Shown in pieces: positions 43,117 to 52,084 of a stretch of 64,000 nucleotides of DNA (position 1 is its first letter; every line of letters begins with the position of its first letter). The translations under genes and the position numbers were made by a program. The DNA is from a bacterium (GTDB lineage: Bacteria; UBP14; UBA6098; 4484-93): assembly GCA_021158465.1 (NCBI GenBank), contig JAGGUN010000005.1:4685-68684 (forward strand). Reading direction: 5' to 3'. The notes beneath the pieces are model-generated. The model did no database searches and was not told the DNA's origin. It worked only from the letters and a program-made list of their open reading frames with translations.

Positions 43117-44001
43117 TCATTCAACATTCTGGACCTGTTCACGGAGCTGCTCAAGCACAGCGCGCATCGAGATGGTCTCGTCTATTATCTCCTGCTGACT
43201 ACTTTTCGCAGCAATAGTTGTTGCTTCTCTGTGCAATTCCTGTAGAAGGAAGTTTAGTCTTCGACCGACCGGCTCATCACATAGAAGAAGCTTCCGCATC
43301 TGAGATATATGGCTTTTAAACCGAACTATCTCCTCCTTTATATCCAACTTCTGGAGTAAAAGGAGCATCGCCGAACCTATCTTCTCCTCATAAGCAGATG
43401 TATCTGAGAACAATTCTTTTGCGTCCCTGCGAAGCTTTTTCAGAACAAGTTCCCTTACCACCCCTTCCGAGACCCTCTCTATCCGCTCGATGGATGATGA
43501 GAGCCTGTCTATACCCGCTTCAATCTGGGCTGAAAGGTTTTTCCCTTCTTCTTTTTTCATCCTGTCGAGCTCCTCAAAAGCCTCAACAAGCGAGCGATAG
43601 ACAGGTTCCCATACCACCTCATCGAGTGAGCTACTCCTATCGAGCCTGACAACATCTGGGAAAGCGGTCAAGATATTAACCTTCACATCATCGGGGAGGG
43701 GATCTTTCCCCAGAACGCTTTTAAATACCTTTTCATACTCTCTAAAAAGAGGCATATCGAGTGTCGGTGAGACAAGTGCCCTCATACTGACAGGGGTAAT
43801 CCTGATAACGACTGTTATCCTCCCCCTTGATACCTTCTCGCGGATAAGCATATCTACCTTGTGCTCCATCTCTTGGAAGCGGGATGGGAGCTTCACGGAG
43901 ATGCTCAAGAAACGGCTATTAAACGAGCTAACGGTCGTTTCAACAAATATCTCGTTCGCCTCAAAAGAGGCGCTACCAAACCCTGTAAGGCTTTTTATCA
44001 T
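43117..44001 (-). CDS. yicC: YicC-family protein (putative endoribonuclease)
   Basis: 294 residues. The N-terminal MIKSLTGFGSA and SFNSRFLSISVKLP, and the C-terminal EPVGRRLNFLLQELHREATTIAAKS are signatures of the YicC family, reported as metal-dependent endoribonucleases in enteric bacteria. The order yicC-gmk-rpoZ is conserved. Its ATG overlaps the stop of the exosortase-partner gene, so it may be read from the surface-protein transcript. Confidence 0.93.
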   Translation of the reverse strand: MIKSLTGFGSASFEANEIFVETTVSSFNSRFLSISVKLPSRFQEMEHKVDMLIREKVSRGRITVVIRITPVSMRALVSPTLDMPLFREYEKVFKSVLGKDPLPDDVKVNILTAFPDVVRLDRSSSLDEVVWEPVYRSLVEAFEELDRMKKEEGKNLSAQIEAGIDRLSSSIERIERVSEGVVRELVLKKLRRDAKELFSDTSAYEEKIGSAMLLLLQKLDIKEEIVRFKSHISQMRKLLLCDEPVGRRLNFLLQELHREATTIAAKSSQQEIIDETISMRAVLEQLREQVQNVE

Positions 44002-44504
44002 TCAAACATCCTATCGAAGCTTATCTCTCTACCTGCAAAGAACATCCACAGGAAGAACGGCAGGAAAGCAAGGAGTAGTGCATCGATAAACACCTTTATC
44101 CCCTCGAGGGTGGACGAGCCGCTCTCGACGAAAAGGATAATAACCGATAGCGCAACTATATGGAAGATGATAAGTATTCCAAACCCGAGCAGGGCATCCC
44201 TTAACCTTTTGTTCCAGCGTATACTTTTTGATGCAACAAGCAACGCCCAGAACGGGATAATATTCGCCACAACCGGGTTTGCTGAAACGGAGAAATCCGC
44301 TCTCATACTGTATGAACGAACGAAAAGTTCACCCGCGCGTGTGAAAAGATATTCAAGCCTCCCACGTGAGAAAACATCAGAGAACCAGACAGAAACCCTC
44401 CCTACAACAGATATATAGGCATCCCTTACGAAAAACCAGAGAAGAAACAGGACAATAGCGGAGGCGAAAAATCTTACAAGGAACAGGAGTTTATCTTTTA
44501 GCAC
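43998..44504 (-). CDS. Four-TM membrane protein coupled to exosortase
   Basis: 168 residues, GTG start at 44504, overlapping the exosortase gene by 14 bases. Predicted helices at about 8-27, 80-95, 108-129 and 139-157, with a loop of about 50 residues between the first two (RGRLEYLFTRAGELFVRSY). No motif I can name. Small membrane proteins are known next to some exosortase types (for example exosortase H-associated proteins), and the tight overlap suggests the same here. It could hold the exosortase or its substrate, or form part of the acceptor transfer; all inference. Confidence 0.7.
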   Translation of the reverse strand: MLKDKLLFLVRFFASAIVLFLLWFFVRDAYISVVGRVSVWFSDVFSRGRLEYLFTRAGELFVRSYSMRADFSVSANPVVANIIPFWALLVASKSIRWNKRLRDALLGFGILIIFHIVALSVIILFVESGSSTLEGIKVFIDALLLAFLPFFLWMFFAGREISFDRMFE

Positions 44505-45024
44505 GCTCCACCACCCTGTCTATCCATAGCACCCAAAGTAGCAGAACGACCACGATAAATGTTATCTGCCAGAGGTATTCGTGAACAAAATCAAAGACCG
44601 GCCGGGAGAAGTACTCACCAATCACCGCAAGGAGGACAAGCCTTACAATATTCAGGATAAATACAGCTGGGAGACCGACTATATGCCCCAAGAGCTTGTG
44701 CCACCCGCGAGAGGGGTAAGCAAGAATCGCTCCTGACAAGATAAAAAACGCGAACACCCCCGTGCATTCATACACAATCTCAAGGGAGATATGCTTTAGC
44801 TGAATCACTGCACCTGATAGGGAAACAGAAAAGCCAAGAAGTTTGAGTACCCTAAAAAACAACCTTGCTGTGAAGCTAACTGGAGCAACCCTAAAAGATT
44901 CTGGAGGAAGGACATAGAGAAGAAGATACTCTGCAACGACAAAGAGTATCATAAAGATGAGGAAGCGTAGGACCAATGTTCGAGTCCCTCTCCCCCCCAG
45001 CTTTCTCCCTTTTTTACTTGCCAT
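44491..45024 (-). CDS. Exosortase/archaeosortase-family protein
   Basis: About 177 residues from the ATG at 45024 (upstream TTG codons at 45069 and 45051 are in frame, but the sequence between holds a hairpin). There are about five or six TM helices. The family's catalytic triad is visible: Cys87 in VYECTGVFAFFILSGAILAYP, Arg128 in ILNIVRLVLLAVIGE and His148 in FDFVHEYLWQ. Exosortases cut C-terminal tripartite sorting signals (motif, TM, basic tail) in the membrane and transfer the protein to another carrier. The short length is near the exosortase H-like group. The adjacent 57-residue gene is the obvious substrate candidate. Confidence 0.85.
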   Translation of the reverse strand: MASKKGRKLGGRGTRTLVLRFLIFMILFVVAEYLLLYVLPPESFRVAPVSFTARLFFRVLKLLGFSVSLSGAVIQLKHISLEIVYECTGVFAFFILSGAILAYPSRGWHKLLGHIVGLPAVFILNIVRLVLLAVIGEYFSRPVFDFVHEYLWQITFIVVVLLLWVLWIDRVVERAKR

Positions 45025-45041
45025 ATGGGAGAGGTAGGAAA

Positions 45042-45065
45042 GGGGGAGCAAAAGAACACTCCCCC
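45042..45065 (-). promoter_or_regulatory. Hairpin between mini-protein and exosortase genes
   Basis: Perfect 7-bp GC stem: CTCCCCC (45059-45065 plus strand) with GGGGGAG (45042-45048), 10-base loop. On the minus (coding) strand the stem is followed only by TTTCC, so it may be a partial terminator or an mRNA-stabilising 3' structure. It would allow more mini-protein than exosortase from one transcript. Confidence 0.55.
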
Positions 45066-45084
45066 ACAAGTCTACCGGATTTTC

Positions 45085-45258
45085 CTACTTTTTCCTCTTG
45101 ATGAGTCGATAAACTCCGTAGCCAGCGGCACCGACAGCTATCAGGGGAATTGCCAACGGACCGATCGGAACACCGGACGGTCCGGAGGGTACGCCCTGAG
45201 CAAAGACTGCCGCCGAACTCAGAAGAACCGCTCCAGCAGCTAAAACCGTCCTTAACAT
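45085..45258 (-). CDS. 57-aa mini-protein, candidate exosortase substrate
   Basis: 57 residues. Strong AAGGAGG six bases before the ATG at 45258. An N-terminal signal peptide (MLRTVLAAGAVLLSSAAVFA, cleavage after AFA-like VFA) is followed by a short Pro/Gly segment (QGVPSGPSGVPIGP), a C-terminal hydrophobic helix (LAIPLIAVGAAGYGVY) and a basic tail (RLIKRKK). After signal cleavage only about 37 residues remain. The motif-TM-Arg/Lys order is the tripartite layout of exosortase sorting signals. It lies 61 bases before the exosortase ATG and 17 bases after the upstream surface-protein stop. No known CTERM type is recognised with certainty; VPIGP or GPSGVP may be the cleavage motif. Confidence 0.75.
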   Translation of the reverse strand: MLRTVLAAGAVLLSSAAVFAQGVPSGPSGVPIGPLAIPLIAVGAAGYGVYRLIKRKK

Positions 45259-45275: not shown

Positions 45276-46595
45276 TTACTTGATAAATAGAACCTTCTTC
45301 ACCAAACTCACATCAGACGAAACCAGCCGGACAAAGTATACTCCTGTCGGGTTGCCATCTGCATTCCAGACGGCATATCCAGAAGGTGAAGCACAATCGA
45401 GAACAGCAACCAGTTCTCCCGATATGTTCAAAACCTCGAGGGAGAAATCCTCCCTTTCAGGGACATTGTAGTATATCCTAACGGAGGAGTTAAACGGATT
45501 GGGAAACACTTCCAGAGAAAACCTATCAGGAGCCAGTTCTCCTTCTGCTCCGAGCATCCGTACGAGATGTATCTCGAATACATAGTCACAATCTCCCTTG
45601 GAGAAGCTATACTCCGTTGCATCCAGCGGGTTTATTATCACATTGCGGATCACATCGTGAACATCGACTCGATATCCTTCGGGGCAGACAATATCCCAAC
45701 TGAGGATAGCAGGACCGCTCTCACCCGTAACAACAAGCCTCCAGGTGGGCTCCCCCGATGAGTTCTTCGCATCCACGCACAGAGGTCCTTCTCCGTCGAG
45801 GTAGGCAAAGAGAGGAACAGAGGCATCGGGTAGCTCAAAAAGCGGTTTCTGACAGTCGAGCTCGTCGGCTCCATCGAGGGCAAGATATGAGGTCGCAATG
45901 ATATTGGAAGCATCAGCGAAACCGGCACGACTAACAGTGAAACGCCCTACAAACTCCCAAGAGGGCTCGGGGATGGTGGCCTTCATTCGATCGAGCAGAG
46001 TAAAATTCAATGTTCCGTTCTCGGGACAGAGTACCCTCACCCAGAACGCTCTACAAACTGGAACCCAATCCTCGCCCGTGGATAACCACGGGAAAAGCGG
46101 GTCATAAAACTTCATCTGGTTTTCTTCCCAGTAGAAGTATACCCTCTGCATATTCAGGGAAGAGAGCCATATCGCCGTCCAGGAAAGCGGAACAGTATAT
46201 GGATTCCCGACCAGATTCCAGCCAGAACCATAGTAAGGGAGAACAAGGAACGTATCACCCTCAACAGAATACCCCGAGATAGCTACCTCCGTGCTATCGA
46301 ATGTACTCCAGAGGAAATATCCATCAAAGAGCCGGAAGTTTGCTGGCACACGGAACTCACTAATAGTTGGATCATATCTGTAGATAAAACTCCCCTCACC
46401 AGTTGGTCCAGAGCCCATACTGAAAGACGGTATCTGCCCGCGGAGCTGGAGCGGGATAGAGACCGGGTCAGCAACAAGGGATGTGGAGAACATATTCCAC
46501 CCCCTCGAAAGCACAGTCGTTACCGTGTCGGTACCTTGGGCAAGAAGGGTCCCAACGGAGAGTAAGATAATCAGAACCGCAACTAGATATTTCAA
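45276..46595 (-). CDS. Secreted GWN-module protein with C-terminal sorting domain
   Basis: 439 residues; the TTG start at 46595 follows AAGGAGG at seven bases. Signal peptide (YLVAVLIILLSVGTLLAQ). A 'GWN' beta module begins at about 30 (SRGWNMFSTSLVADPVSIPL) and continues through FLWSTFDS and SGWNLVGNPYTVPLSW. A beta region with TVSRAGFADASN follows, then a sorting domain with EVFPNPFNSSVRIYY, ending in LVKKVLFIK. The same modules in the same order occur at the C-terminal end of the 1806-aa protein encoded upstream, so the two are paralogues. Surface role unknown. Confidence 0.82.
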   Translation of the reverse strand: MKYLVAVLIILLSVGTLLAQGTDTVTTVLSRGWNMFSTSLVADPVSIPLQLRGQIPSFSMGSGPTGEGSFIYRYDPTISEFRVPANFRLFDGYFLWSTFDSTEVAISGYSVEGDTFLVLPYYGSGWNLVGNPYTVPLSWTAIWLSSLNMQRVYFYWEENQMKFYDPLFPWLSTGEDWVPVCRAFWVRVLCPENGTLNFTLLDRMKATIPEPSWEFVGRFTVSRAGFADASNIIATSYLALDGADELDCQKPLFELPDASVPLFAYLDGEGPLCVDAKNSSGEPTWRLVVTGESGPAILSWDIVCPEGYRVDVHDVIRNVIINPLDATEYSFSKGDCDYVFEIHLVRMLGAEGELAPDRFSLEVFPNPFNSSVRIYYNVPEREDFSLEVLNISGELVAVLDCASPSGYAVWNADGNPTGVYFVRLVSSDVSLVKKVLFIK

Positions 46596-46663: not shown

Positions 46664-49600
46664 CTATTTAAGTAATACCATCTTCTTCGTTTCGACAAAG
46701 TTACCAGCCCGAAGCTTATACAGATACACCCCTGTCGGCACAGGCACACCATCGTCATCCATCCCATCCCAGATGATAGAATAGTACCCTGCCTCCTGAT
46801 TCTCGTCCACAAGGGTAACCACCTTTTGCCCAAGCAGGTTGTAAATCTCAAGCACAACATCCGTATTCTCAGGAAGTGCATAGTTCACAGCTGTTGCGGC
46901 ATTGAACGGATTAGGATAGTTCTGCGAGAGAGCATAGGTGGTGGGAATAGCCAGCTGTTCAACATCGGCTGCTATCCTGGTAACGACAATCTCAAAGTCC
47001 CGCGTGTCTCCTGACTCGTGGAAGGTGTAAGAGGGTTCCTCTACCATATTGACATCCGCTCCGGTGGAGAGGTCGTGCAGCACAACGGAGTATCCCTCTG
47101 TCGGCACGAAGAGCTCCCCATCAGCAGGCCAGCTGATTGTCATAGTGCCAAGGCTCGTTACATCACCATAAGCCTCGATATGGAAGCTCCATACCTTTGG
47201 CACAGATGTCTCAAGAGGTGCCTTGTTGTCGACCGCCAGCGCAGAATCAGAAGCGACAAAATAGGAGATGAAAGTCTGCCCTGATGGAATAAATCCAGCA
47301 GGTATGTGAAGCATATCGGATGGGTCAAACCCGTCAGAAGCACCCGCCGATGTTGCCATAACACAGGGGTCTTCCATGCCGGCTCTACTCGCAACAATCT
47401 CTATACCGATGCTATCAACTACCACTGTTCTCTTGAACAGTCTTGTGCCTGTTGCCTTGGCAGGTGGTAGAGGTTCATAGCGGAACGGAAGCGTTCCACC
47501 TTCGTCAGTATCAAGCACTTGCACCCAGAAACCGACCCAAGGGTCAAGCATCCTGTCGACCATACCAGCCGGAACACCAAACCCTATACCTGTTGCTGGA
47601 TTATAGTAGTAGAACCCAAACTGGTCACCGAGCCAGACATAGTAGGATGTTCCTATACCGGAGAACTCCGGGTCACTGCAGACAGCGTGCCAGTCAACGA
47701 GCTTACTGTAAGGGTTCCCCATCATATACCAGCCAGTTGAGGCTTCGGTATAGGGCAGGACAAATGTTGTATCCCTTGTGAACGGCTCACCGGAAACATC
47801 GAAGTGGGAGTCGTCGAACCAGGACCAGAGGAAATACCCTGTGCCGATGTCGAACGATGTTGGAACAACAAACTCCCTGTCCTCGGAATCGTATTTGTAG
47901 ATAAGGGAACGCCACGGGTCGGCATACCACGGCGATATATCGTCACGCAGTTGCATACTGACATTGTTCGGCTCAGCCTCAACAGGAACAGATATCAGAT
48001 TCCAGTCCTTGTGGAGCGCCGGATTCACCTGGATAGTGGCTACAAATGGGTTGGGGCTCTCATCGTCATCGAGGAAGATGTAAATCGGGAACTCGTATGT
48101 CCCTGGTATCAGGTCGAGGCTGCCGTCATATATTATATAGAATGTATAGCATTCACCTGGCGGGATGACACCTGCTGGCGGATAAACCGACAATCCGTTC
48201 GGGAGGGTGGCATGCCCAGAATCGATGATGTAGACATAGTGGGTCACACGCGAGTGGAACCAGAACCTGCCCTCGCTGTCGATATCGAGTCCACCGGTCG
48301 AGAACAGCCCCGAAGCATCACCGGGGAGCGTAAACGAGCTGATTATCCTCTTGTTCTCGAAGTCCATCTCGTAGCAGATATCCATACCCAGTTCTGCAAC
48401 CCAGATTGTCCTCCTACCGGGATGGAACGCCAGACCACCCGTGTAGAAGTAGTTGAGGCTATCGATTATGGTGCCTGGATTGGGCCAGCTCTTCCCCCTC
48501 ACCTTATAGATAGGCGTACCAAGAAGGACACCACCATACATAAAGTAGTCAGACGAGCCGAGATAGAAAACATCCTCGACAGGGTCATACGCTATACCAA
48601 ATTCGCCCATCTGATCCCAGATATGAGCAGGGTCGGTGAGGGAGTCAACCATCATATGTGACACAGGGTCCCAGGCAAAGAGCCCTGTTGCTGCAATGGA
48701 TGTATTCCAGAGGTAATCTCCCACTCTCTGATTGTTGAGGGCGATAGCGGTATCCGGGAGCCAATAGGCGTAAGCGACCTCACCTGTAAACGAGCCATCA
48801 GCGGTGGAGAACTTGAAGAACCTGTTCGTTGCCATATCGGTAATCCAGTAGTAGTTATCGTTCTGAATTCCGATGCCCCAATCGGTAACGATACCTGCAA
48901 GCGGGTCAACACGGAAGGAGTCGACAATATCGCCTGTAGCAAGCGTCCTCGAAAGACTCCTATCGGCGGATGCTCCGTCGAAGCTCGAAGGAACTATGCC
49001 TTTTTTCACATCCATAATATCTATCGCACTCTCGGGAGCAACACGAGAAGCAGAGATACCGTCGTCGAATGAAAGCGATTTCGTGAAGGGCATTATCGCC
49101 TCAGGACTGACATATATCTCAATAGGTTGGTCGGTCGGGTTGCATATCGTCACGGGAACAGAATCGACCGTCCCATAGGTCACCTCACCTGTTATATGAT
49201 CGGATGGTGTAAGATGAAGCGGGGTCATCCGGATAATTACCTCTGTCGTATCGCCTTCATAAACATTTGCGCTGACAAATCCAGGGAAATATCCCATCTT
49301 TGTTCCGACTATCTGCTTTGCACCGGCAGGAATATTATCGAGGAAGAACTCACCGCCTGTATTCGAGTAGGTCACACCTGGACCGCACCTAACCCTCGCG
49401 TTGTAGATAGGCTCGTGTGTCTCGATGTCCACGACATATCCCTTGACAGCACCGGTGGGCCAGCTATATCCCTCGAAATCATCGAGATACCAGCCGGGAT
49501 AATCATTTATGGACCCATCGGAGGCGAACCAGAACATAATGTCGGTAGCGTCACCTTCATACGCCGAGAGGTCGAGCCAGACCTGCTCCCAGCCGCTGCT

Positions 49601-52084
49601 ACTGCCTGAATAAGCAGGTAGACCACCAAGAACATTGCCGAAGGAAGTGGAAATCACTGTAGGATAGCCTCCTTCCGGGAAATGAAGCCACCAGTTATCA
49701 CCGTTGTCGGTGGATACCCAGATGTTTCCTCCGTCATACCCCGTCGTAAGATAATTCTCCATATCATACCAGTGCCAGAAGGAGATATAAGCATACGGTC
49801 TATCAAGATGGACAAACAGTTGCCAGGAAGCATTGTTCATACCATAGTCTCCGCCGATGACCGTTCCCCAGCAGTATGGTGCAGAATGAGCCGCAGCGGG
49901 TCCCGTTCCAGAGGGCGTTCCCCACTCCCAGAAAGCATCCTCACCCACAACAAAACCGCCATCATCTGTATCAAAGTCCTCTGTCCAGTCGGGGGTCTGC
50001 GGATCGAGGATAATGTCGGCAACATAAGTCGTCTCATTGGAGACAACCTCCACATCATACACCACCTCTACGCCATACCCAGGATATGAGGCGACTATCG
50101 AGTATATTCCCGATTCGAGAGGTCCAGCGAGGTAGACTCCTCCCGTGGTGGTATAGAGGAGAGTATCGTGTGTGCCACCGATATCTATAGCGATCCAGGG
50201 GTCACCATAAGGACCGGTATCGGAGAGGTCGGCAAGACCTTGTATATATCCTATCGGCATCGGCTCGAGCACAAAATTCACAAATGCTGTATCGTCGAGA
50301 GCCACAGATACACCATAAGCAGTATCTGGATAGAAACCGGGGCAGGATGCAACTACAGTATATGAGCCGGGCGGAACGGATATCGAGTAATCGCCCGATG
50401 GTGACGCAGAATGGGTAGTCCTCCCGAGCTCAACAACAAGCACCTCTGCTCCCCCGTTGTCCGTTCTACCGACAAGGTTTACATTGCCGGCAATCACCGC
50501 GTGATGCGGTTCGACAGGAACAAACTCAACGGCGCTTTGGTCCTCGAGTCCGTCTGCATCGGTGTCATAAGTTCCATTATAAACATACTGGGTGTATTCC
50601 GCATCATCTCTCCTTACACCAACGGTAGAAGATGTCAGAACTCCGGAGGAAATGGTCTTATACTTGACTATGAGCTCGCCGTTATCCCCCGGAACGGGAG
50701 CGGAAGGATAAGCAGGGTCAATAAGTATCACCTCAAAGGTGGAGAGGTCCCCTGTTGCCCAATCCTCGGCATTATTCCATTCTATGACGAACCTATGATG
50801 AGAGATGTCGTTGTAGACATACACAGAGCCCGCGGTAGGACACCAGAGGGGATCATAAAACGCAAAGTCATCCCACAGCGGAGCGAACATAAAGTCAGGA
50901 GCAGATGGGTCGGAGAGCTCATAGTTGGCGTAGAAATCGTCTCCCGGGTCCTCTCCGAAGCTTATCCACCCGTTCGTGGATACCCAGACAGTATCATAAT
51001 CCCTTCCATAGAACCTGAACGGGAACGGCAGCTCAACAGGTGCATGGTTGTCATCCCAGCTACCCCAGCCATAGAGGTCCCAATCGATGAATGTGCCGAC
51101 ACCTGCTATCTCCACCCAGTCCGTATCGGGGACAAACTCTCCATCATCCTCATCATCGTAAGCAAAGTATGGACCGTATATCACGAAACAGAATGTATCA
51201 GAATAGGCGGTATTGGGCGGGGAGAACAAATCGGTGGCGGTAATATAATAGCAAACCTCCGTCCAGACAGGCTGAGGTGGTATCGTAACGAAGTAAGAGT
51301 CCGGCACAGCAGTCTCCGACATAGGAAGAGATGTCCAGCCACTGCCAGCGTTATAGTAGACATAAACGCTTGTCGGGTCGACACCGGAGAAGTCGGTTAT
51401 CGTAGCGCCGACACCGTATCCCGACATACCATCCGGCTGGTCATCAAGCGGTGTATGAGAGATAACTGGAGGCGCAGGCTCACTTGCACCACCACCGTAG
51501 ACATAAACAGAGTCCACAATCCACCAAAAATCGTCGTAGGAACGGTAAAGAAAGGCAAACTTTACATGGCTCTCATGGGCAGCTTTATCACTGACATCCC
51601 GTGTACAGTATGCAGAATCAACATCAGTAAAGGTGAAAAGCGTCTCGGACCAACTGACACCGTCGTCGGTACTCAAGAGAACATAGGCAAGATGCGTCCC
51701 TGCAGTGTAAGTATTGAAGAAATGCCAGAAACTAACAATCACCGTGTCATAGAAGCTGCAATCAAGGGTGGGAGTTATAAGCCAATCATTACAAGAATCA
51801 GCTGGTGGATACAAGAGAGGGTCAGAATAGAGTATCTCGGCAAAATTCCCGTGAGCAGCCGGAACGAACGGCGATGTTGTAGTGGTAGGTCCAAGATGCC
51901 AGTCATCGAGAGTGTCCGGGTCTCCACTTATATCTGTGTTCCCCAGAGCTAACTTCGTCCAACCGGGAGGAAGCCAGCTATCTTCAAAATTCTCCTCCAA
52001 TAAATAATCAGCCAACAGCGAACCGAACATTAAGACGAGTGTAGAAAACACCACTCCCAGAAACACACCCAGCCGACGGCTCAT
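46664..52084 (-). CDS. Giant multidomain surface protein with C-terminal sorting domain
   Basis: 1806 residues. Signal peptide (VVFSTLVLMFGSLLA). Approximate order: choice-of-anchor J-like jelly roll (30-200); Ig-like (205-310); a lectin-like region with FRFYGRDYDTVWVSTNGWIS (315-540); carboxypeptidase-regulatory-like beta domains (545-700 and 880-970) around a second jelly roll (WEWGTPSGTGPAAAHSAPYC ... GWYLDDFEG); a beta-propeller-like stretch (about 1060-1340); a GWN module (DWNLISVPVEAEPNNVSMQL); and a sorting domain (SQNYPNPFNAATAVNYALPE ... ETKKMVLLK). AAAAGGAGG precedes the ATG. Likely a secreted adhesin or surface-layer component; no enzyme motif is seen. First gene of the operon leading into the exosortase block. 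Confidence 0.85.
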   Translation of the reverse strand: MSRRLGVFLGVVFSTLVLMFGSLLADYLLEENFEDSWLPPGWTKLALGNTDISGDPDTLDDWHLGPTTTTSPFVPAAHGNFAEILYSDPLLYPPADSCNDWLITPTLDCSFYDTVIVSFWHFFNTYTAGTHLAYVLLSTDDGVSWSETLFTFTDVDSAYCTRDVSDKAAHESHVKFAFLYRSYDDFWWIVDSVYVYGGGASEPAPPVISHTPLDDQPDGMSGYGVGATITDFSGVDPTSVYVYYNAGSGWTSLPMSETAVPDSYFVTIPPQPVWTEVCYYITATDLFSPPNTAYSDTFCFVIYGPYFAYDDEDDGEFVPDTDWVEIAGVGTFIDWDLYGWGSWDDNHAPVELPFPFRFYGRDYDTVWVSTNGWISFGEDPGDDFYANYELSDPSAPDFMFAPLWDDFAFYDPLWCPTAGSVYVYNDISHHRFVIEWNNAEDWATGDLSTFEVILIDPAYPSAPVPGDNGELIVKYKTISSGVLTSSTVGVRRDDAEYTQYVYNGTYDTDADGLEDQSAVEFVPVEPHHAVIAGNVNLVGRTDNGGAEVLVVELGRTTHSASPSGDYSISVPPGSYTVVASCPGFYPDTAYGVSVALDDTAFVNFVLEPMPIGYIQGLADLSDTGPYGDPWIAIDIGGTHDTLLYTTTGGVYLAGPLESGIYSIVASYPGYGVEVVYDVEVVSNETTYVADIILDPQTPDWTEDFDTDDGGFVVGEDAFWEWGTPSGTGPAAAHSAPYCWGTVIGGDYGMNNASWQLFVHLDRPYAYISFWHWYDMENYLTTGYDGGNIWVSTDNGDNWWLHFPEGGYPTVISTSFGNVLGGLPAYSGSSSGWEQVWLDLSAYEGDATDIMFWFASDGSINDYPGWYLDDFEGYSWPTGAVKGYVVDIETHEPIYNARVRCGPGVTYSNTGGEFFLDNIPAGAKQIVGTKMGYFPGFVSANVYEGDTTEVIIRMTPLHLTPSDHITGEVTYGTVDSVPVTICNPTDQPIEIYVSPEAIMPFTKSLSFDDGISASRVAPESAIDIMDVKKGIVPSSFDGASADRSLSRTLATGDIVDSFRVDPLAGIVTDWGIGIQNDNYYWITDMATNRFFKFSTADGSFTGEVAYAYWLPDTAIALNNQRVGDYLWNTSIAATGLFAWDPVSHMMVDSLTDPAHIWDQMGEFGIAYDPVEDVFYLGSSDYFMYGGVLLGTPIYKVRGKSWPNPGTIIDSLNYFYTGGLAFHPGRRTIWVAELGMDICYEMDFENKRIISSFTLPGDASGLFSTGGLDIDSEGRFWFHSRVTHYVYIIDSGHATLPNGLSVYPPAGVIPPGECYTFYIIYDGSLDLIPGTYEFPIYIFLDDDESPNPFVATIQVNPALHKDWNLISVPVEAEPNNVSMQLRDDISPWYADPWRSLIYKYDSEDREFVVPTSFDIGTGYFLWSWFDDSHFDVSGEPFTRDTTFVLPYTEASTGWYMMGNPYSKLVDWHAVCSDPEFSGIGTSYYVWLGDQFGFYYYNPATGIGFGVPAGMVDRMLDPWVGFWVQVLDTDEGGTLPFRYEPLPPAKATGTRLFKRTVVVDSIGIEIVASRAGMEDPCVMATSAGASDGFDPSDMLHIPAGFIPSGQTFISYFVASDSALAVDNKAPLETSVPKVWSFHIEAYGDVTSLGTMTISWPADGELFVPTEGYSVVLHDLSTGADVNMVEEPSYTFHESGDTRDFEIVVTRIAADVEQLAIPTTYALSQNYPNPFNAATAVNYALPENTDVVLEIYNLLGQKVVTLVDENQEAGYYSIIWDGMDDDGVPVPTGVYLYKLRAGNFVETKKMVLLK

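Follow-up and report, generated by a model that had tools for sequence, protein, structure and literature searches.

The window, the whole 64,000-nucleotide stretch analysed here, carries on its minus strand a dedicated exosortase cassette: a 57-residue CTERM mini-protein, an exosortase and a partner that appears to be a catalytically dead paralogue of the enzyme, most likely serving T9SS cargo encoded directly upstream. We assign this explanation as a whole a probability of roughly 0.7. On the minus strand the genes are transcribed in the order 1806-aa T9SS-tail protein, 439-aa T9SS-tail protein, mini-protein, exosortase and 168-aa partner (Table 1). The three cassette reading frames lie where the initial annotation, made from the sequence by itself, had placed them, and on the same strand. 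The exosortase and partner genes overlap by 14 nt, an alternative TTG start at 45069 would give a 192-aa exosortase, and a further reading frame (43117-44001) overlaps the end of the partner gene. For bacterial exosortases, substrates and products in the cell are still largely unproved, and an enzyme with an inactive paralogue and a 57-residue substrate would be about the smallest system for reconstituting the reaction. More surprising than the mini-substrate itself are the paralogy of the partner and the repeated occurrence of T9SS-cargo genes beside mini-CTERM genes.

Table 1 Features of the exosortase cassette and its upstream neighbours, numbered by window position.
Feature	Position	Strand	Basis
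168-aa membrane partner, overlaps exosortase gene	43998-44504	-	hhalign with wide profiles, AF2
Exosortase-family transpeptidase (putative activity), 177 aa from ATG 45024	44491-45024	-	PF09721, TIGR04178, invariant residues, AF2
57-aa CTERM mini-protein	45085-45258	-	Conservation, purifying selection, single profile match in genome
Mini-protein basic tail RLIKRKK	45088-45108	-	Alignment
Mini-protein C-terminal TM helix PLAIPLIAVGAAGYGVY	45109-45159	-	Sequence; conserved AIPxIAVxAxxYGxY
Mini-protein signature motif VPIG	45160-45171	-	VP[IV]G among relatives
Mini-protein Pro/Gly spacer QGVPSGPSG, 9 residues	45172-45198	-	Sequence; 7-10 residues in relatives
Mini-protein signal peptide, residues 1-20, predicted cut VFA/Q	45199-45258	-	Sequence and alignment; cut site inferred
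439-aa secreted protein, T9SS type A tail	45276-46595	-	TIGR04183 30.5 bits, PF18962 33.3 bits
1806-aa T9SS-tail surface protein	46664-52084	-	TIGR04183 45.7 bits

A dedicated exosortase and its probable mini-substrate

The exosortase exceeds the cut-offs of PF09721 (59.7 bits, cut-off 25.7) and of the signature model TIGR04178 (65.9 bits, cut-off 23). Cys87, Arg128 and His148 (numbered from the ATG at 45024), the set already recognized in the initial annotation, are invariant across six relatives, and together with the scores these conserved residues place the protein in the exosortase/archaeosortase superfamily. A cysteine transpeptidase activity on the CTERM substrate is putative, being read from these sequence features. 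The enzyme is the sole PF09721 match in the 2.04-Mb genome, and its AF2 model has a pLDDT of 80. PDB sequence and fold searches with the exosortase and the partner returned nothing meaningful for either.

The mini-protein reading frame is conserved beside homologous exosortases in five genomes from three families, at a length of 52-57 aa. Seventeen positions of the alignment (n=5) are invariant, including V30, P31, G33, A36, I37 and P38, as is the A20-Q21 pair at the end of the signal peptide. Compared with its congener, the frame shows 12 nucleotide differences, of which 8 fall at third codon positions (dN 0.033, dS 0.186), and it evolves under purifying selection, as do the exosortase and partner genes.

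Among 17 genomes from the phylum, five have both the mini-protein and the exosortase and the other 12 have neither, a coincidence with a chance of 1/6188 (~1.6e-4) provided that the genomes are independent; the G001 and G013 genomes are only 80% complete. The order T9SS-tail gene, mini-protein, exosortase, partner is identical in all five carriers. Judged by reading the sequences, the gene after the partner is presumably YicC-like in the window genus, thiazole-synthase-like in G002 and G005, and DUF59-like in G013. In G013 the cassette stands between the giant T9SS gene and the DUF59-like gene, and in four members of its family (G004, G007, G009 and G011) the giant T9SS gene is followed by the DUF59-like gene with the cassette absent, so the three genes were gained or lost as a unit. 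The mini-protein frame is short, as a chance ORF or a pseudogene beside an exosortase would be, but its conservation in five genomes, third-position bias, invariant motif and joint gain and loss with the enzyme refute that explanation, which we consider practically excluded.

A profile built from the five mini-protein sequences gave one credible match in the whole host genome (E<=10); two further matches were rejected, one being a signal peptide and the other an antisense frame. A scan for a signal-like start, C-terminal TM segment and basic tail over 407 kb (~20% of the genome), comprising the window and a 343-kb sample of the same genome, returned the mini-protein as the only convincing gene, although very dissimilar CTERM signals could escape both a 20% sample and a profile search. 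The claim that this is the only tripartite signal in the 64 kb thus holds and extends to 407 kb, and both checks that had been proposed, for homologues beside related exosortases and for other CTERM proteins, favour one enzyme with one substrate. Weak profile matches in distant genomes were mostly partial, in large frames or in signal-peptide regions, and none was accepted as a homologue.

A protein-sorting enzyme that has one target in its genome is said to form a dedicated system, enzyme and target tending to be neighbours (PMC3237569). The cassette shows this pattern, with one target in the genome next to its enzyme, other CTERM types having been covered by the profile and the 20% sample. 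Given its conservation beside the exosortase, purifying selection and single CTERM match, the mini-protein is very probably the dedicated substrate of the window exosortase.

The partner as a distant exosortase paralogue

Alignment of a 19-exosortase profile to a 16-partner profile with hhalign gave a probability of 94.8% (E 5.5e-8), colinear over 143 columns, whereas reversed sequences did not exceed 0.1%, nor did any of 21 further multi-TM proteins exceed 4.3%. Single partner sequences scored at most 41.5% against the exosortase profile, far under the profile-profile score, so the case for paralogy depends on family profiles. The partner residues aligned with Cys87 and Arg128 are neither Cys nor Arg. 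The AF2 models of the two proteins (pLDDT 85 for the partner) have a similar order of elements, namely one or more helices, three strands, a short helix and TM helices. By these comparisons the partner is apparently an inactive, distant, full-length paralogue of the exosortase that lacks the catalytic Cys and Arg, and we favour a role as a non-catalytic subunit. The initial annotation had described a four-TM gene overlapping that of the enzyme; the overlap stands, but the non-catalytic paralogy visible to profile alignment had been missed.

Companion genes overlapping or closely behind an exosortase gene are seen in many phyla, and the partner is homologous to those at five loci (L037, L038, L039, L041 and L044; hhalign probability 93-98%, with no other multi-TM protein above 1.4%). 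Paralogy would be the first explanation offered for the unexplained membrane proteins that stand beside many exosortases. Exosortases of Geomonas (L013:4827-5849) and Thermodesulfovibrio (L014:4785-5861) are extended at the C terminus by a further half of ~170 aa, possibly a fused partner; the homology is suggestive only (probability <1% for the narrow profile and 13.7% for the wide profile), and these proteins were not used as Rosetta-stone evidence.

T9SS-cargo genes upstream of the mini-protein

In all five carriers in the phylum, the gene directly upstream of the mini-protein encodes a T9SS tail. In G002, G005 and G013 it is an orthologue of the 1806-aa protein, and in the window genus it is the second protein, of 439 aa. 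With type A sorting tails over the cut-off and SprA in the genome, these upstream genes qualify as T9SS cargo; SprA was also found in most of the phylum. The SprA-like T9SS translocon of the window genome lies at G000:C31:23972-29578, in a host apparently outside Bacteroidota. The 1806-aa protein is matched across the whole phylum, mostly at full or near-full length, with or without the cassette. Its retention in cassette-free relatives means that the giant protein does not generally need the cassette, and the occurrence of one mini-protein in a genome with dozens of matches to the T9SS-tail protein likewise counts against a tie to cargo, as does the place next to the mini-protein being taken in the window genus by the 439-aa gene and not by the giant one.

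The same arrangement recurs in the closest known system, XrtX/PID-CTERM (NF046081/NF046080). Locus L016 of an uncultured, Bacteroidota-like bacterium (genome G386) has three consecutive genes: one for a T9SS-tail protein, one for a PID-CTERM mini-protein of 85 aa (37.3 bits against a cut-off of 26) and one for an exosortase resembling XrtX (121 bits against a cut-off of 170). About a dozen PID-CTERM mini-proteins, of 55-85 aa where the locus was read, lie at loci L099-L110 of this genome; the model gives 14 matches in frames of 60-113 aa, with a dozen clear ones over the cut-off. A T9SS tail ends the gene directly upstream at 9/9 testable PID-CTERM loci, counting those where the mini-ORF is intact and upstream sequence is available, at gaps of -3 to 339 bp; eight of these nine upstream genes are over the TIGR04183 cut-off and one scores 18.3 bits, and some of the loci are paralogous and hence non-independent copies. 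Only about 21 T9SS-tail genes were detected across G386, a rarity that leaves the adjacency unexplained by chance. In this one genome, on which the XrtX/PID-CTERM comparison is based, T9SS-tail adjacency thus presents itself as a possible general rule for PID-CTERM proteins. This neighbourhood, at 5/5 loci in the phylum and 9/9 in G386, is what the otherwise largely correct cassette reading of the initial annotation had overlooked.

The PID-CTERM proteins also bear on whether the mini-protein is a substrate at all. It could instead stay uncleaved, as a small two-helix membrane regulator, a chaperone or a third subunit of the exosortase-partner complex; the very short spacer (7-10 residues) would leave almost no product, and the strongest conservation lies inside the TM segment. 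Yet the layout is tripartite, with motif, TM segment and basic tail, and the PID-CTERM relative has the same CTERM layout behind a 30-residue spacer. A dozen PID-CTERM genes over the cut-off in one genome are, moreover, expected for substrates and not for a subunit, and we regard an uncleaved mini-protein as unlikely.

An ordinary dedicated exosortase system, a variant of the XrtX or XrtH type in which the small substrate serves an independent function, for instance as a short surface or signalling peptide, is a serious alternative that we hold to be quite possible. ArtB, XrtH and XrtX are the best NCBIfam exosortase matches, and dedicated systems with an adjoining target are an established sortase pattern (PMC3237569). 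Here the T9SS adjacency would be incidental, against which stand the T9SS-tail genes directly upstream at every phylum and G386 locus, with so few tails in the latter genome. On gene neighbourhood, a functional tie between the cassette and T9SS cargo has about an even chance of being real. The recurrent pairing of mini-CTERM and T9SS-cargo genes, of which we found no description in the literature searched, suggests that two pathways of protein sorting are linked in a way not yet described and that T9SS protein display includes an unrecognized step. In Flavobacterium johnsoniae, XrtF and its adjacent partner are required for biofilm formation as T9SS genes are, and their mutants share the surface-colonisation and biofilm defects of porU/porV deletions (PMC10936215).

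A more speculative extension is that mini-CTERM proteins are cargo-specific companions of T9SS proteins across Bacteroidota and the deep-branching phylum, the exosortase and its dead paralogous subunit making a peptide conjugate that would anchor or license the cargo encoded upstream. We infer such a role from gene order alone, in two lineages, and advance it as a minority possibility; if true, a reaction of the inner membrane, that of the exosortase, would be coupled to T9SS sorting at the outer membrane.

Proposed mechanism

In the dedicated cassette that we favour, Sec would export the 57-aa pre-protein and signal peptidase would cut between A and Q. The C-terminal helix and basic tail would then keep the mini-protein inserted in the inner membrane, so that VPIG lies on the outer side. 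Cys87, with Arg128 and His148, may attack near VPIG to form an acyl-enzyme, which the amine of a lipid or glycan would resolve, by analogy with work on archaeosortase and rhombosortase. Archaeosortase A works by a Cys in its active site; lipidation of its substrates is C-terminal and probably involves an ethanolamine lipid (PMC7157517). The expected product is a peptide rich in Pro, roughly 9-15 residues long, attached to a lipid or glycan carrier, and we propose such a conjugate tentatively. Lipidation, one of two fates raised in the initial annotation, is plausible by this analogy; for the other, polymerisation of the peptide, the present analysis found no sign in favour. In Bacteroidetes, a Gln exposed at the N terminus after the signal peptide can turn to pyroglutamate, a rule that the paper limits to this group (PMC5837995), and pyroglutamate at the N-terminal Gln of the mini-protein is only a possibility.

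The enzyme and its apparently inactive paralogue are hypothesized to form a heterodimer, probably with the partner as its non-catalytic half. The cassette would most likely serve the cargo encoded directly upstream, for example by providing an anchor or an accessory for its surface display.

Comparison with known exosortase systems

Small dedicated substrates have precedents. The window substrate is small beside the large proteins that exosortases usually sort, as had been pointed out, but it is not unprecedented: PID-CTERM substrates in G386 have about 55-95 aa, and the XrtJ/PExPT-CTERM model (TIGR04200), named after its exosortase, describes a mini-target of 57 positions. To the latter the window mini-protein gives a weak full-length match, under the cut-off (13 bits, cut-off 40, E 0.066). 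Neither the PID-CTERM nor the PExPT-CTERM model had a match over its cut-off among about 290 relatives, and literature searches for XrtX, XrtJ and PID-CTERM gave no relevant paper.

The XrtX/PID-CTERM system shares with the cassette a compact exosortase, a mini-gene directly behind a T9SS-tail gene, and a substrate made of signal peptide, short spacer, VP[IVF][DG]G.. motif, TM segment with a Y-G motif and basic tail; against the window CTERM profile, the L016 protein outscores 200/200 TM-shuffled controls. Both cassette proteins nevertheless fall under the cut-offs of this system (exosortase 69.3 bits, cut-off 170; mini-protein 6.4 bits, cut-off 26). Its motif is VPxDGG rather than VP[IV]G, about a dozen substrates occur in G386 as opposed to one per genome, and no partner was seen behind the L016 exosortase, whereas the window partner overlaps its enzyme.

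Archaeosortase B, the enzyme of VPXXXP-CTERM proteins, is an archaeal family. Its model (TIGR04144) gives the window enzyme its top NCBIfam exosortase score, 96.4 bits, under the cut-off of 150, and its target motif starts with VP as in the mini-protein. The Flavobacterium XrtF and its exosortase F system-associated protein likewise pair an exosortase with an adjoining partner gene, but the window enzyme scores 20.2 bits on the XrtF model (cut-off 90). The XrtF target is unknown (PMC12188702).

The XrtH/IPTL-CTERM system (TIGR04177, TIGR04174, NF041730) resembles the cassette in having a compact exosortase that overlaps a downstream membrane partner, with the substrate gene immediately upstream (L056, L057/L008 and L061). 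It differs in its substrates, which in the loci examined have about 190-395 aa and the motif IPTLSEW, and in score, the window exosortase reaching 71.4 bits on TIGR04177 (cut-off 86) and the partner 16.2 bits on the XrtH-associated membrane protein model NF041730 (cut-off 35). Partners are common beside XrtH-type enzymes, and in L056, L057 and L061 an IPTL-CTERM substrate, an exosortase and an overlapping partner are consecutive. Genome G240 encodes three exosortases, two of which (L056 and L061) lie in such loci.
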